Shown in pieces: positions 2,415 to 59,512 of a stretch of DNA of 64,000 nucleotides (position 1 is the first letter of the stretch; each line of letters opens with the position of its first letter). The stretch comes from Flavobacteria bacterium MS024-3C. GTDB taxonomy: Bacteria > Bacteroidota > Bacteroidia > Flavobacteriales > Flavobacteriaceae. The stretch covers positions 186,001-250,000 of the forward strand of contig ABVW01000001.1 of assembly GCA_000173115.1 (NCBI GenBank), read 5' to 3'. The translations under genes and the position numbers were made by a program. The notes beneath the pieces are model-generated. The model was not told the DNA's origin, made no database searches, and worked only from the letters and a program-made list of their open reading frames with translations.

Positions 2415-3565
2415 AACTTTTTGACGTCTATCCATTATATGATGTGACTCCTGTGAGTGCCAAAGGAGCGGTATTAACAGATATTAATGGTACAGAATAT
2501 TTAGACCTATACGGGGGGCATGCGGTTATTTCTATTGGCCATAGCCACCCCCATTATACCCAATCTATAAAAGACCAATTAGACAAAATTGCCTTTTATA
2601 GCAATGCGGTTCAAAACCCTATTCAAACGGCTTACGCTCAAAAATTAGGGACCTTGTCTGGTTGTGAAGACTATCAATTGTTCTTGTGTAACTCTGGAGC
2701 AGAGGCCAATGAAAACGCCCTTAAAATGGCTTCATTCATCACTGGAAAATCTAAAGTAGTGGCCTTTAAAAACAGTTTTCACGGACGTACCTCAGCAGCA
2801 GTTGCTGTCACGGACAACCCTTCTATTCAAGCCCCAATAAACAAAGGGCACGAAGTGATTTTTATTGCCCTTAATGATGAAGAGGCATTAAAAGAAGCAC
2901 TTTCTGGAGGCGATGTTTGTGCTGTGATTATAGAATCTATTCAAGGAGTAGGTGGCCTGGACCAACCCACGACTCCCTTTTTTAAAACCATTGAAGCCTT
3001 ATGCCAAGAATACCAAGTAATGCTCATTGCAGATGAAGTGCAGTCTGGATTTGGAAGGACAGGTTTGTTTTTTGGTTTTCAACAGCACGGGGTACAACCT
3101 GACCTTATTCCTATGGCCAAAGGAATGGGGAATGGATTTCCGATTGGTGGGGTATTAATTCATACTAAATACAAAGGAATACACGGACAGCTCGGCACCA
3201 CTTTTGGTGGAAATCACTTGGGCTGTAGGGCCGCTTTAGCGGTATTGGAGGTCATAGAGGAAGAGAATCTCATAAACCATGCAAAAGAAATGCATGAATA
3301 TGTGAAAGTACAAATGGCCTCTTTACCTGCTGAAATTATCTTAAAAGGAAGGGGACTCATGCTAGGATTGGCCTTCCCTTTTGAGATTGCTGCACTTAGA
3401 AAAGAACTATTGTATACGCACCATATATTCACTGGAGCTGCTAAAGACAAGAAAGTCTTAAGAATTCTGCCCGCTCTCAATATTACAAAAGCACAAATAG
3501 CACAATTTTTTACTGCATTAAAAAAGGTGTTAGACAAACCCGAAAACCAGTCTTACTTTAAATAA
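2411..3565 (+). CDS. argD: N-acylornithine aminotransferase
   Basis: PLP-dependent class III aminotransferase that converts N-acylglutamate semialdehyde to N-acylornithine. The 384 residues show the family hallmarks: LCNSGAEANENALKMA for phosphate binding, IADEVQSGFGRTG holding the PLP aspartate, and the Schiff-base lysine Lys237 in MAKGMGNGFPIGG. The start ATG overlaps the proC stop by four bases, suggesting translational coupling. The last 11 codons plus stop are echoed by a second, non-coding copy 50 bases downstream (see repeat at 3530-3620). Ornithine aminotransferase is a possible alternative, but the operon context favours ArgD. Confidence 0.92.
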   Translation: MKLFDVYPLYDVTPVSAKGAVLTDINGTEYLDLYGGHAVISIGHSHPHYTQSIKDQLDKIAFYSNAVQNPIQTAYAQKLGTLSGCEDYQLFLCNSGAEANENALKMASFITGKSKVVAFKNSFHGRTSAAVAVTDNPSIQAPINKGHEVIFIALNDEEALKEALSGGDVCAVIIESIQGVGGLDQPTTPFFKTIEALCQEYQVMLIADEVQSGFGRTGLFFGFQQHGVQPDLIPMAKGMGNGFPIGGVLIHTKYKGIHGQLGTTFGGNHLGCRAALAVLEVIEEENLINHAKEMHEYVKVQMASLPAEIILKGRGLMLGLAFPFEIAALRKELLYTHHIFTGAAKDKKVLRILPALNITKAQIAQFFTALKKVLDKPENQSYFK

Positions 3566-10752: not shown

Positions 10753-11868
10753 TTAAGGTTGTACGGTGTGAGATATGCTTCCACTTCCAACCTGGTCACA
10801 AATATACTGTCCATTTTGACAATAGGCAACTAATTCGTTTTCAATAAATTGAAGCACTTGAACTTTATGCATTTCTGGATACAGCAAATGTACATTTGCA
10901 CCTGCGTCTAGTGTGAAACAAACAGGCAAAGCAGTGTTTTTTCTAAAATTCCAAATTTTTTCAATGATAGATAAAGTGCCAGGCTTCATCAATATAAAAT
11001 AAGGACTACTGGTCAGCATCATAGCATGAAGTGTTAATGCCTCTGACTCCACTACACTTATAAAAGTTTCCATATCTCCTGAGACCAAAGCCTCAGTCAA
11101 TAGAGCCAATTGATCATGGGCCTGTTGAAACCTAGCTTTAGCGAAGGGATGGTCTTTCATTAAACCATGGCCCACAGTACTACTCACTACTTTCTCTCCT
11201 TTGTCTACCAGTAAAATAGTATCCTGAAAGTTCTTAAAAATAGGGGCTAATACTTTATTGAATGGCACAGCAACTAAGTCTTGACTGGCTTTAAAGCCTG
11301 GTGTTTTACCCCATTGCATGAGCGGGCCGCTAATGCTTCTCGCAGCACTTCCTGATCCCAATCTTGCCAAAAAGGATGCTTTTGCATAAAAGGCTTCTGA
11401 AAAAACGTTTTGATCATTGGGAGGAAACTCATCCGACAATTCTAACAAACAAAGTGAAAGTGCTGCCATAGCACTTGCAGATGAAGCTATTCCACTTGAA
11501 TGGGGAAAGGTGTTTTCACTGTTAATCACCAAATGATATGTTTTTAAAAAGGGTAAATAATCAAAAACCCTTGCAAAAAAAGAGGCTATTTTTGGATGAA
11601 AATCTGGTTTGGGAGCCCCCTCAAAAGAAAATTCAAAAGAGAAGGCCCCAGTGCTTTTATCACTAAGCATGCTTTGATCAACCAAGGTCACTGATGTTTT
11701 GGTATTACAGTGATTTAGGGTAAAACTAATTGATGGATTGGCTGGAATCTGAGGGTCGTATTTTCCCCAATATTTAACCAAAGCTATGTTGCTTGGAGAC
11801 GCCCAAGTCACTGTTTTATTGGTCTGAACAAGGTGTTGCGATGAAGGTATAAAGCCAACAGCTTCCAT
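10753..11868 (-). CDS. mvaD: Diphosphomevalonate decarboxylase
   Basis: ATP-dependent decarboxylation of mevalonate 5-diphosphate to isopentenyl diphosphate, in the cytoplasm. The 371 residues contain the diagnostic ASPSNIALVKYWGK near 24-37, the phosphate loop SSGIASSASAMAAL, and GSGSAARSISGP. First gene of a three-gene minus-strand operon (mvaD, GHMP kinase, UbiA). The start at 11868 has an exact TATATTTG element 16 bases upstream. The family call is firm; mevalonate use is well known in Flavobacteriia. Confidence 0.92.
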   Translation of the reverse strand: MEAVGFIPSSQHLVQTNKTVTWASPSNIALVKYWGKYDPQIPANPSISFTLNHCNTKTSVTLVDQSMLSDKSTGAFSFEFSFEGAPKPDFHPKIASFFARVFDYLPFLKTYHLVINSENTFPHSSGIASSASAMAALSLCLLELSDEFPPNDQNVFSEAFYAKASFLARLGSGSAARSISGPLMQWGKTPGFKASQDLVAVPFNKVLAPIFKNFQDTILLVDKGEKVVSSTVGHGLMKDHPFAKARFQQAHDQLALLTEALVSGDMETFISVVESEALTLHAMMLTSSPYFILMKPGTLSIIEKIWNFRKNTALPVCFTLDAGANVHLLYPEMHKVQVLQFIENELVAYCQNGQYICDQVGSGSISHTVQP

Positions 11869-54885: not shown

Positions 54886-55923
54886 CTAAGGCACCAATAA
54901 ATTACACCCCCTAATAGCGGCACTGTCAAAACGGCCTAGGATAGAGAAGCTATTGTCACTAAAAGTCTTTCCCAGATCTTGAGTGGCAATAAATGCACAA
55001 GAATGTATGTTGGCAAAATCAATGACGTTAACGCCTCCTGTTTTTCCGTCACCCACAAAGTTAAAAGGATCTTCCGTATCTCTAATCAATATTTTCATCC
55101 ATGGAGGCGTGTCAAAAATACCGTCTCCTTTGGAATAGGCTTGGGACAAAAGTTCCGTCATTCCGTATTCTGAATGAATTTTAGAAACGCCAAAACCACT
55201 GCCTAATTTTTCGTGAAGCGCTTCCCTAATCATTTCTTTTCGCCTTCCTTTCATTCCTCCGGTTTCCATCACTATGGTGTTTTTCAATGACATGCCATAT
55301 TTTTCACTAAAATCCAGTATCGCAAAAGAAACCCCAATTAAAAATATTGGGGCATTTTTAGACTCAAGGTCCAATAAGGTTTTATAAAGCGCTTCGTGGT
55401 CGTGAAGGTAGAAACCAGATTGGGGGTGGCGGCTCTTTTTAATGAGGTCTTCTGCCATATAAATCAATGAAGATCCCTCCCTTTCTAAATAAGCAGGCAA
55501 TAAAGCCAATACACAATAGTTTTCTACTGGACCATAAAAAATCTCAAAAGCCGTCATATAACTTGCTTCATAAAGCGATAAGTCGGGAACAAAATGTTTT
55601 GATGTTTCAGATCCAGTGGTCCCACTAGAAGTAAAATAAAAAAGGGAATCTGTACTTTTATCTAAAGGTTTTATCTCAGCAAAAGCTTTAGCTGGCTCTA
55701 GAGGCAGCTGTGTAATAACCTGGTGGGTTTTAAAGAATGAAATAGGTAAAAAGGGAATATCTTCAATGGTTTGAACTTGCTGAGGTGTTTTTTTGAGTAA
55801 GCGGCAAAATTCGTAATATACCGCATTGTATTTGTATTGAAATGCAAATAGTTCCAAAGCACGGGCTTTAAATGCCTCTTGGGTGTTTTCTAACGAAAAA
55901 GGAGCAGGAAAAATAGCTTTCAT
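54886..55923 (-). CDS. LuxE/PaaK-family acyl-activating or acyltransferase enzyme
   Basis: 345 residues of the LuxE/PaaK adenylate-forming group, cytoplasmic. The phosphate-binding loop reads FTSSGTTGSE near residues 97-106, preceded by LPISFFKTHQV, and followed by ETGGMKGRRKEMIRE near 220 and HSEYGMTELLSQAYS. It is an acyl-protein synthetase (LuxE) type protein rather than a full PaaK, judged by its short length. The substrate and any pathway partners are unknown; the divergent epimerase may be functionally linked. A -7 element just before the ATG suggests a leaderless message. Confidence 0.8.
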   Translation of the reverse strand: MKAIFPAPFSLENTQEAFKARALELFAFQYKYNAVYYEFCRLLKKTPQQVQTIEDIPFLPISFFKTHQVITQLPLEPAKAFAEIKPLDKSTDSLFYFTSSGTTGSETSKHFVPDLSLYEASYMTAFEIFYGPVENYCVLALLPAYLEREGSSLIYMAEDLIKKSRHPQSGFYLHDHEALYKTLLDLESKNAPIFLIGVSFAILDFSEKYGMSLKNTIVMETGGMKGRRKEMIREALHEKLGSGFGVSKIHSEYGMTELLSQAYSKGDGIFDTPPWMKILIRDTEDPFNFVGDGKTGGVNVIDFANIHSCAFIATQDLGKTFSDNSFSILGRFDSAAIRGCNLLVP

Positions 55924-55927
55924 GGGG

Positions 55928-55935
55928 CAAAAATA
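55928..55935 (-). promoter_or_regulatory. Putative -7 promoter element of the LuxE/PaaK-like gene
   Basis: The minus strand reads TATTTTTG, an exact TAnnTTTG match, ending five bases before the ATG: a leaderless transcript is implied. Confidence 0.5.
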
Positions 55936-55949
55936 GGGAATAAAAAACG

Positions 55950-55957
55950 TAATTTTG
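55950..55957 (+). promoter_or_regulatory. Putative -7 promoter element of the epimerase gene
   Basis: TAATTTTG, an exact TAnnTTTG match, ending six bases before the ATG. Together with the element at 55928 it forms a divergent leaderless promoter pair within a 39-base gap. Confidence 0.5.
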
Positions 55958-55962
55958 ATAAT

Positions 55963-56970
55963 ATGATACTCGTTACTGGAGGTACCGGTTTAGTTGGTGC
56001 CCATCTTCTTTTTAGTCTATGTGAAGACCATCAGCTATGTAGGGCTATTTACAGAAATGTAAAAGGATTAGAGGCTGTAAAGAAATTATTTATTTCATCT
56101 GGCGACCTTAACTTAGCGCGCTATAAGACCATAGAATGGGTGCTTGGAGATATATTGGACCTAGAAGGATTAACCCCTGTTTTCAAAGGAGTTAAAACGG
56201 TATATCACTGTGCTGCCCACATCTCTTTTGATCCCAGTGCTTACAAAACCCTTAAATCTGTAAATGTTTCAGGAACAGCTAATATGGTTAATCTTGCCTT
56301 AGACTTTAAGGTAAGTGCTTTTTGTTATGTGAGTTCCATTGCTGCACTTGGAAAATCAGATACGCAAAATCACATTACAGAGGAAACGGATTGGAATATT
56401 AGCGATCCAAATGTATACGCCCTTACTAAGTACGAAGCAGAATTGGAGGTTTGGCGGGGTATTTGGGAGGGACTTCCTGCCACCATTATAAATCCCGGTG
56501 TAATTCTAGGCCCTGGGTTTTGGAAAAAAGGAAGTGGTAAATTATTTTCATTCGCACAAAAAGGCAGTCCATTCTACTTTCCTGGTGGTTCAGGATTTGT
56601 TGGGGTAAAAGATGTTGTGAACTGTATGACACTCAGTGTTAAGGAAGAAAAATGGAAAGAGCGTTTTATCTGTGTTTCAGAAAACCTGACTTACAAAGCG
56701 CTATTTGGAGATATGGCGGAGGGATTTGGTTTAAAAAAACCCACCCATAAACTGCCTTTTTGGATCCTTGAAATCCTTTGGCGCTTAGACTATATTAAGG
56801 GCTTGTTTCTAAAGGGCGACAGAAAAATAACAAAACACACCCTAAAAGGCCTGAGTCGAAGGGATTTTTACGATGCCAGTAAATCCAGTATAACATTAAA
56901 AATGGAATACACGCCCATTAAAAAAGTGGTGATAGGGTGTTGTGACCTGTTTAAGGACAGCATTCAATAG
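55963..56970 (+). CDS. NAD-dependent epimerase/dehydratase (extended SDR)
   Basis: 335 residues, atypical-length extended short-chain dehydrogenase. The NAD motif is VTGGTGLVGAHLL (4-16), an Asp-Ile-Leu-Asp follows near 63-66, the catalytic Tyr152-Lys156 lies in YALTKYEAE, and NPGVILGPGFW is typical of the dihydroflavonol reductase-like group. The substrate is unknown. Its C-terminal codons and stop form the first unit of a seven-copy 17-bp repeat. Confidence 0.88.
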   Translation: MILVTGGTGLVGAHLLFSLCEDHQLCRAIYRNVKGLEAVKKLFISSGDLNLARYKTIEWVLGDILDLEGLTPVFKGVKTVYHCAAHISFDPSAYKTLKSVNVSGTANMVNLALDFKVSAFCYVSSIAALGKSDTQNHITEETDWNISDPNVYALTKYEAELEVWRGIWEGLPATIINPGVILGPGFWKKGSGKLFSFAQKGSPFYFPGGSGFVGVKDVVNCMTLSVKEEKWKERFICVSENLTYKALFGDMAEGFGLKKPTHKLPFWILEILWRLDYIKGLFLKGDRKITKHTLKGLSRRDFYDASKSSITLKMEYTPIKKVVIGCCDLFKDSIQ

Positions 56971-57072
56971 AGGACAATATTCAACAAAGAATGGCTTTCA
57001 AAAAAGGACAGCATTCAACGGAGGATGTGTTTCAACAAAGAAAGGCATTCAATGAAGGATGTCTTTCAATGA
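56954..57072 (+). repeat. 17-bp degenerate tandem repeat, seven units
   Basis: Seven consecutive 17-base units, each built on AGGAnnnnnTTCAAnnn: AGGACAGCATTCAATAG, AGGACAATATTCAACAA, AGAATGGCTTTCAAAAA, AGGACAGCATTCAACGG, AGGATGTGTTTCAACAA, AGAAAGGCATTCAATGA, AGGATGTCTTTCAATGA. TTCAA is invariant. The first unit includes the last codons and stop of the epimerase gene; the others fill the convergent gap to the DUF4296 gene. Too short and regular for CRISPR; no spacers. Confidence 0.9.
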
Positions 57073-57083
57073 AAAACCTTCAT

Positions 57084-57443
57084 TTATTCCAAAGCGCTAG
57101 ACGCTTTAGCGGCCTGGTCGTAAGTAGTTTTTAAGGCCTGGAGGCGTTTCTCTACCCTGCGATATATAACCTCATATTCCAATGGCTTTGAGGCGTAATA
57201 CAAGTCATTTTGAGCGTATACGGTACTGTCTATCTCGTACTTTTTATAGATGTATCCCAGTGGGGTAATAGATTGTGCTTTAAACTGAGACCTGTCTGCA
57301 GCTACTGCTGCATTTAATACAGCCATATCATATACTATAGATTCCATCTGATCCAAAGACAGTACTCTATCTGGTTTAGGCACTACTTGGTTGCTACAAG
57401 AAAGACCAAATGCAAGTAGGGCAAAAAAGAACATTTGCTTCAT
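57084..57443 (-). CDS. DUF4296 lipoprotein
   Basis: 119 residues, lipobox GLSC (Cys16), then a small helical domain with the DUF4296 features LSLDQMESIVYDMAVLNAA and YIYKKYEIDSTVYAQNDLYYAS. The function is unknown; the family is confined to Bacteroidota. It is two bases downstream of the dihydroorotase gene and likely cotranscribed with it. Its 3' end faces the 17-bp repeat. Confidence 0.85.
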   Translation of the reverse strand: MKQMFFFALLAFGLSCSNQVVPKPDRVLSLDQMESIVYDMAVLNAAVAADRSQFKAQSITPLGYIYKKYEIDSTVYAQNDLYYASKPLEYEVIYRRVEKRLQALKTTYDQAAKASSALE

Positions 57444-57444
57444 A

Positions 57445-58782
57445 TTAATCTCTATTAAAATTAAGTCTCATGGCATTTTTATGACCGCTAATCACGCCAC
57501 TATCATAGGCCAAATGCCCGTTGACAAATGTTTTTTGAACACTATTTGAAAAACGTGTCCCTGTAAATGGAGACCAGCCACAAAGGGCGACAATATTTTC
57601 ATTGCTTACAGTCCAAGGACTGTTAGGTTTTACCAAAACCAAGTCTGCATAGTACCCTTCTCTTAAATACCCACGTCTGTCAATATCAAATAAAATAGCT
57701 GGGTTGTGACACATTTTCTGAACCATGGTGGGCAAAGAGAGTATTCCTTGGTCTACTTTTTCTAACATGCCTACCAAAGCGTGCTGTACTAAAGGACCTC
57801 CAGAAGGTGCTTTGGCATACTTCTGTTGTTTTTCTTCTAAAGTGTGGGGGGCGTGGTCTGTGGCAATGATATCTATACGATCATCTAAAAGGGCCTCCCA
57901 CAAGCCTGCTCTGTCATTGGCTGTTTTAACGGCTGGATTCCATTTAATTAAACTGCCTTTCTCTGCATAATCCTCCTCTGAAAACCAAAGGTGGTGCAGG
58001 CATACCTCTGCAGTAATTTTTTTATCTTTTAAAGGAATGTCATTTCTAAATAAAGCGGTTTCTTTGGCTGTGGATATGTGAAATACATGCAGTCTAGCCC
58101 CAGTCTCTTTAGCCAGTGCAACGGCTTTTGAAGAAGACAAATAACAGGCCTCTTCTGAGCGAATTTTAGGGTGGGCATCCATTGGAATGTCTTCACCGTA
58201 ACGCTCAGTAAAAGCGGCCATATTTGCTCTTATAGTTCCCTCGTCTTCACAATGGGTGCAAATCACCAATTCGGTGTTTCTAAAGATGCCTTCTAATACT
58301 TTCTGATTGTCTACGAGCATGTTCCCCGTGGAGGATCCCAAAAATAACTTTACATTAGAAGTAGCGTTTTTATCCAATCGCTTTAATTCCTCTAAATTGT
58401 CATTGGTCCCACCAAATGGGAAGGCGTAATTGGCAAAGGAGCTTTGTGCTCCTAAAGCAAATTTAGCCTCTAAGGCTTCAATCGTGGTGGTTTGCGGATT
58501 GGTATTGGGCTGTTCCATAAAGGTTGTTATACCTCCTGCTACAGCTGCCCTACTTTCCGAATAAATGGTTCCTTTATGGGTAAGACCTGGTTCTCTAAAA
58601 TGGACTTGATCATCTATAATTCCTGGTAACACCCACATGCCATTAGCCTCTACTATGGTAGCATTGGGGTGGGAAAGATCTTTACCTATCTTTTCAATGA
58701 AATGGTCTTTGAGTAAGACGTCGGCCTGAAAGGCCAAACCCTCATTGACTAAAGTGCCATTCTTTATAATCGTATAACCCAT
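57445..58782 (-). CDS. pyrC: Dihydroorotase (class I amidohydrolase)
   Basis: Cyclises carbamoylaspartate to dihydroorotate in pyrimidine synthesis. The 445 residues show the amidohydrolase plan: WVLPGIIDDQVHFREPG at 50-66, VAGGITTFMEQPNT, CTHCEDEGT, LHVFHISTA, and IIATDHAPHT with the catalytic Asp. The first metal ligand of the usual HxH is Gln59 here (QVH), a variant I associate with Bacteroidota dihydroorotases. It is two bases downstream of the glycosyltransferase gene. Allantoinase/hydantoinase is a less likely alternative. Confidence 0.87.
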   Translation of the reverse strand: MGYTIIKNGTLVNEGLAFQADVLLKDHFIEKIGKDLSHPNATIVEANGMWVLPGIIDDQVHFREPGLTHKGTIYSESRAAVAGGITTFMEQPNTNPQTTTIEALEAKFALGAQSSFANYAFPFGGTNDNLEELKRLDKNATSNVKLFLGSSTGNMLVDNQKVLEGIFRNTELVICTHCEDEGTIRANMAAFTERYGEDIPMDAHPKIRSEEACYLSSSKAVALAKETGARLHVFHISTAKETALFRNDIPLKDKKITAEVCLHHLWFSEEDYAEKGSLIKWNPAVKTANDRAGLWEALLDDRIDIIATDHAPHTLEEKQQKYAKAPSGGPLVQHALVGMLEKVDQGILSLPTMVQKMCHNPAILFDIDRRGYLREGYYADLVLVKPNSPWTVSNENIVALCGWSPFTGTRFSNSVQKTFVNGHLAYDSGVISGHKNAMRLNFNRD

Positions 58783-58783
58783 G

Positions 58784-59512
58784 CTAAAAATTATTTTTAT
58801 TAAACACGCTTTGCCATTTGAGCTTTAAAACGCCAATAACGGCTTCGCCCACAATAGCGCTACTCATCTTTGATTTTCCCAACTCCCTGTCTTTAAAAAC
58901 GATGGGAACCTCCTCAATCTTAAAACCTAAAATATGGGCCCTAAATTTCATCTCAATTTGGAAAGCATAACCCACAAATCGCACCCGGTCCAGAGGAATG
59001 GCTTCCAATACTTTTCTGGTGTAACAAACAAATCCTGCCGTTGGGTCATGCACCCTCATGCCTGTAATTAGCTTCACATAAAAAGACGCCCCGTAAGAAA
59101 TTAAGATTCTGTACAAGGGCCAATTCACCACATTAATTCCCTTTTTATAACGAGAACCTACAGATAAATCTGCCCCTTTCTCACAGGCCTCAAATAGGGC
59201 AATAAGGTCCTTTGGTGGATGAGAAAAATCTGCATCCATTTCAAAAATGTAGTCGTATTGTTTTTTTAAAGCCCACTTGAATCCATGAATGTATGCAGTT
59301 CCAAGGCCTCCTTTACCAGTTCTTTCTTCTATGAATAGCTGTCCTGGGTATTGGCTTTGTAAGGATTTAACTTGTGCTGCTGTTCCATCAGGCGATCCGT
59401 CGTCTACAATCAGAACATGGAAGTCCAAGGAAAGTTCAAAAACAGCACTAATAATTTGAGTGATGTTTTCAATCTCATTATAAGTGGGAATAATAACAAG
59501 TCTATTGGACAT
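58784..59512 (-). CDS. Dolichol/polyprenol-phosphate mannosyltransferase-like GT2
   Basis: Transfers a sugar to polyprenyl phosphate at the inner membrane, 242 residues. Family 2 features are VIIPTYNEIENI at 5-16, VDDGSPDGTA, and the DxD-like EMDADFSHPP, followed by DLSVGSRYKKG. No C-terminal membrane helices, so it is the soluble DPM1-like type. The divergent GT39-type gene would use a polyprenyl-linked sugar, so the two may act together. A TAnnTTTG element is 20 bases upstream of the start. Confidence 0.88.
   Translation of the reverse strand: MSNRLVIIPTYNEIENITQIISAVFELSLDFHVLIVDDGSPDGTAAQVKSLQSQYPGQLFIEERTGKGGLGTAYIHGFKWALKKQYDYIFEMDADFSHPPKDLIALFEACEKGADLSVGSRYKKGINVVNWPLYRILISYGASFYVKLITGMRVHDPTAGFVCYTRKVLEAIPLDRVRFVGYAFQIEMKFRAHILGFKIEEVPIVFKDRELGKSKMSSAIVGEAVIGVLKLKWQSVFNKNNF

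Follow-up and report, generated by a model that had tools for sequence, protein, structure and literature searches.

The end of an epimerase-like gene in Flavobacteria bacterium MS024-3C runs into an array of seven imperfect 17-bp units, arranged head to tail without a single insertion or deletion (unit table), which is very probably an ordinary, neutral, lineage-specific imperfect minisatellite grown by slippage or misalignment from the gene end itself. Nothing points to a new kind of element, and the array is otherwise ordinary. Coordinates (Table 1) refer to the window, that is, the whole 64,000-nucleotide stretch of DNA that was analysed, and follow a unit phase in which the array occupies 56953-57071, equivalent to 56954-57072 in the phase of the first-pass annotation.

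Table 1. Features of the array and its flanking genes, in window coordinates.
Feature	Coordinates	Strand	Basis
NAD-dependent epimerase/dehydratase-like gene, 335 aa	55963..56970	+	ORF; Pfam NAD_binding_4 and Epimerase
Array, seven 17-bp units	56953..57071	no strand	consensus RAGRA-N5-TTCAA-N2; TRF and unit table
Unit 1, gene-end unit common to sister species	56953..56969	+	aligned against the four sister sequences
Six extra units, 102 bp, not in sisters	56970..57071	no strand	gap lengths 113 nt vs 11, 11, 11, 10 nt
Ancestral spacer remnant between stop codons	57072..57083	no strand	alignment to the short spacer of the sisters
DUF4296 gene, 119 aa, convergent partner	57084..57443	-	ORF; Pfam PF14129
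Amidohydrolase-family gene, 445 aa, next in conserved gene order	57445..58782	-	ORF; Pfam PF01979; synteny

Unit design, internal order, and gene context

The first-pass annotation had described a seven-copy 17-bp repeat running from a stop codon into the intergenic gap, and the unit table bears this out, with all units in perfect register. Unit 1 comprises the last codons of the epimerase-like gene together with the first two bases of its stop codon; in the earlier phase the ORF end at 56970 falls inside this unit, in agreement with the statement that it encodes the last codons and the stop, while TTCAA occupies positions 10-14 of 7/7 units, and five of the seven begin with AGGA, as most had been said to do, the remaining two beginning with AGAA. 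In the phase adopted here, columns 2, 3, 5, and 11-15 are invariant and variation falls mostly in columns 6-10 and 16-17; pairwise identities range from 9 to 15 of 17 (unit matrix), and units differ on average at 5.3 of 17 positions, or about 31%. The earlier statement that the array is not a protein repeat is supported, the only frames to cross it, of 37 and 47 aa, being chance-like.

A higher-order period of 51 bp, absent from the first-pass annotation, accompanies the 17-bp unit: units 1-3 are similar to units 4-6, TRF scores the array at 137 for period 51, 88 for period 34, and 71 for period 17, and the self-match falls from 52/68 at lag 51 through 63/85 at lag 34 to 65/102 at lag 17. The array lies far beyond chance, which is excluded as its source. 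TTCAA-N12-TTCAA occurs six times in the window, all within the array, against 0.60 expected (0/100 shuffles reach six); the lag-17 match of 0.64 exceeds the 0.49 that 2000 dinucleotide shuffles of the array reach at most over lags 10-39; and when 119-bp pieces are taken by sliding along the window (3758 in all), the best self-match is the array site.

The contig search returned 34 loci, of which 32 (L031-L062) combine the epimerase-like, DUF4296, and amidohydrolase-family genes (the last of which we take to be dihydroorotase-like), as L010 also does; the other two of the 34 (L063 and L064) are partial epimerase matches without the neighbour genes. Flavobacterium, Gramella, and unclassified Flavobacteriaceae are among the records with matching loci, the four nearest of which are metagenome bins. 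The bin G007, labelled Sediminicola sp. Ww92, carries two diverged whole epimerase/DUF4296/amidohydrolase loci on different contigs (L031 and L032), which suggests a mixed bin. Elsewhere, a Flavobacteriaceae genome holds a 12-bp unit, ACAATTTCAATG, in 7.4 copies at 97% identity (L058 2810-2898), ending about 100 bp upstream of the match to the epimerase homologue.

Probable growth from one unit to seven

The array was compared with four sister sequences drawn from three genomes (two from G007 and one each from G003 and G011), at an epimerase protein identity of 86-88%. All four keep the convergent gene pair and an identically placed epimerase stop, and in the alignment each has the gene-end unit alone, with no array. 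Counted on the aligned sequences, the gap between the two stop codons is 113 nt here versus 11, 11, 11, and 10 nt in the sisters, so that relative to three of the four the gain is of exactly six units (113-11 = 102 = 6 x 17). In the alignment, unit 1 corresponds to the gene end of the sisters, and the 12 nt just ahead of the DUF4296 stop correspond to their short spacer. Because the sisters are single-unit and the gap is longer by exactly six units, the array is, on parsimony, probably a gain in this lineage from one gene-end unit, and the earlier proposal that the repeat grew out of the gene end is thereby supported. That the site is a variable-number locus, as had also been suggested, is plausible on the species-level copy number of seven versus one. 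A minisatellite repeats a unit of roughly 10-60 bp head to tail; the array does so with seven copies of 17 bp, and its copy number differs between lineages, with one unit in the four sister sequences and seven here.

The reverse course, in which an ancestral array was lost in the sisters, is extremely unlikely. Absence in the sisters alone gives no direction, and the gap of the outgroup G005 is long too; nevertheless, that gap holds an unrelated 21-bp repeat built on the DUF4296 stop, and loss would need exactly the extra units to have gone in all four sister sequences, down to a similar spacer of 10-11 nt.

Growth within this lineage would have begun with the tandem duplication, via replication slippage or misalignment, of 17 bp lying over the epimerase gene end. 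The array may first have reached about three units and then, through duplication of a 51-bp block, six or seven, after which the copies would have drifted; units 1 and 4 are identical at 15/17 bases, which, together with the 52/68 match at lag 51, indicates that a three-unit block was probably duplicated. The codons and stop would stay with the first copy, and the additional ones would land between two convergent genes, where they hurt neither promoter nor reading frame, so that growth would be tolerated.

Two further cases indicate that gene-end duplications recur. In the genome that carries the array (G000), the last 30 bp of a gene at L084 8547-9908, stop included, are duplicated at L084 9878-9938 (G000:C21:299878-299938), a duplication absent in three sister genomes, where a single copy is present. 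In G005, a different species within the genus (57% identity), the 21-bp repeat in the same convergent gap (2.4 copies, L010 2625-2675) spans the DUF4296 stop (ORF 2658-3026) and is independent of the 17-bp array; of 12 genomes from the genus, one matches its pattern. G000 has many small tandem arrays, with 20 in 264 kb at a TRF score of at least 50. An enrichment of such arrays at stop codons was considered and set aside, as the numbers are too few to claim (3/20 in the 264 kb of G000 versus 0.88 expected, and 1/7 in 200 kb of G003 versus 0.35 expected, all on simple longest-ORF gene calls). A separate repeat in G000, with a 29-bp unit in 2.9 copies at 100% identity (L082 11959-12043; G000:C21:171959-172043), is located downstream of a tRNA-Phe gene (11715-11788), at a distance of about 170 bp; given that its copies are identical, it is probably very recent.

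Folding, protein binding, and inversion

Three features were counted against a neutral minisatellite. All seven units are exactly 17 bp long despite a divergence at which a few indels could have been anticipated; TTCAA is unchanged in 7/7 units while the preceding 5 bp vary; and the full array, as + strand RNA, gives a good fold (-30.5 kcal/mol, with z -3.1 relative to plain dinucleotide shuffles). With respect to the second, the clustering of invariant columns is not significant, a run of five being reached in 2311/20000 column permutations.

The folding invites an account in which the array serves as an RNA 3'-end structure, the GRA-N5-TTC segments of different copies pairing into a long imperfect hairpin that would end or protect both convergent mRNAs; the predicted fold does set units 2:7, 3:6, and 4:5 opposite each other. 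This account is quite improbable, as the structure, significant under plain shuffles, was rejected under controls that respect the units. On the + strand, 345/1000 sequences fold at least as well when permutation is confined to the five central letters of each unit, as do 637/1000 when unit order is shuffled, and 53/1000 reach the observed energy when columns are shuffled across units (the closest control); on the - strand, the central-letter, column, and unit-order controls give 401, 185, and 487 of 1000, respectively. The fold thus does not exceed what the unit forces, and it stems mainly from the GRA...TTC unit shape. The terminator scan places no terminator-like site inside the array, its nearest site (57109-57121, +) lying inside the DUF4296 gene and matching the consensus weakly, and no Rfam match was obtained up to E = 1 across 55500-58800. 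Moreover, the sisters manage with convergent genes 10-11 nt apart and no array, which leaves the first-pass suggestion of a transcription buffer unsupported.

The same GRA-N5-TTC core is quasi-palindromic, and it is conceivable, though unlikely, that template switching there left units 3, 5, and 7 core-inverted relative to units 1, 2, 4, and 6, making the array a fossil of slippage plus quasi-palindrome inversion and, by chance, a self-complementary RNA that may protect or end convergent transcripts. Flipping the cores lifts column agreement in the 5-bp centre from 20 to 23 of 35, but a gain of at least 3 arises in 193/2000 permutations, so that the inversion is not significant.

The invariance of TTCAA in 7/7 units at an exact spacing of 17 bp would also suit a protein-binding array, as the first-pass annotation had proposed, with TTCAA as the core that a regulator or nucleoid protein would recognize. 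We regard this as very unlikely: the array lies between two gene ends rather than upstream of a gene, the conservation does not exceed its controls, and the array is the sole place of its kind in its own genome while being absent from the sisters and from 396/397 family genomes searched. Specifically, a three-unit pattern with TTCAA fixed matches this locus alone in its own genome (64% complete) and 1 of 12 genus genomes, namely this one; three GRA-N5-TTCAA units are found in 1 of 397 family genomes, again this one, and in 0 of the 329 with a completeness of at least 90% and a contamination of at most 5%. Candidate second copies were likewise dismissed, as BLAST against the same genome returns the array itself plus eight short matches with E of 0.055 or higher. 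An iteron-like element would be conserved in relatives or lie near a replication or promoter region, a description that the array does not fit. A promoter-like match inside it (57001-56974, -) is one of 6 in the region versus 7.1 expected and was attributed to chance.

Comparison with other repeats

In CRISPR arrays, repeats of about 23-47 bp alternate with unique spacers of comparable length, whereas the 17-bp units here are contiguous and vary mainly over stretches of 5 and 2 bp. Closer in setting are the intergenic VNTRs of Flavobacterium psychrophilum, described in the portions of the source drawn on here as having units of 4-9 bp and as being used for telling isolates apart (PMC4501049). 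Both are short tandem repeats in flavobacterial intergenic gaps; the present array differs in its 17-bp unit and its diverged copies, and its copy number was compared between species.

The repeats of archaeal Borgs are portrayed, in the sections of the source used, as fast-evolving, absent from a close relative, and either intergenic or beginning with a unit inside the end of a gene, the intergenic unit lengths being mostly not divisible by three (PMC9879509). The array is alike in being fast-evolving and not in a close relative, with its first unit in a gene end and a unit length not divisible by three; however, Borg units, according to those sections, are perfect and scattered genome-wide, whereas the units here are about 31% different and form the single such array in the genome (PMC9879509). 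Borg-type repeats are perfect units without SNPs, and the present units, at identities of 9-15 of 17, are not. No paper on the 17-bp array is among the literature matches listed.

As a probably neutral minisatellite, the array provides a clean before-and-after case of origin from a gene end, in which the sisters are single-unit and the added length is a whole number of units.
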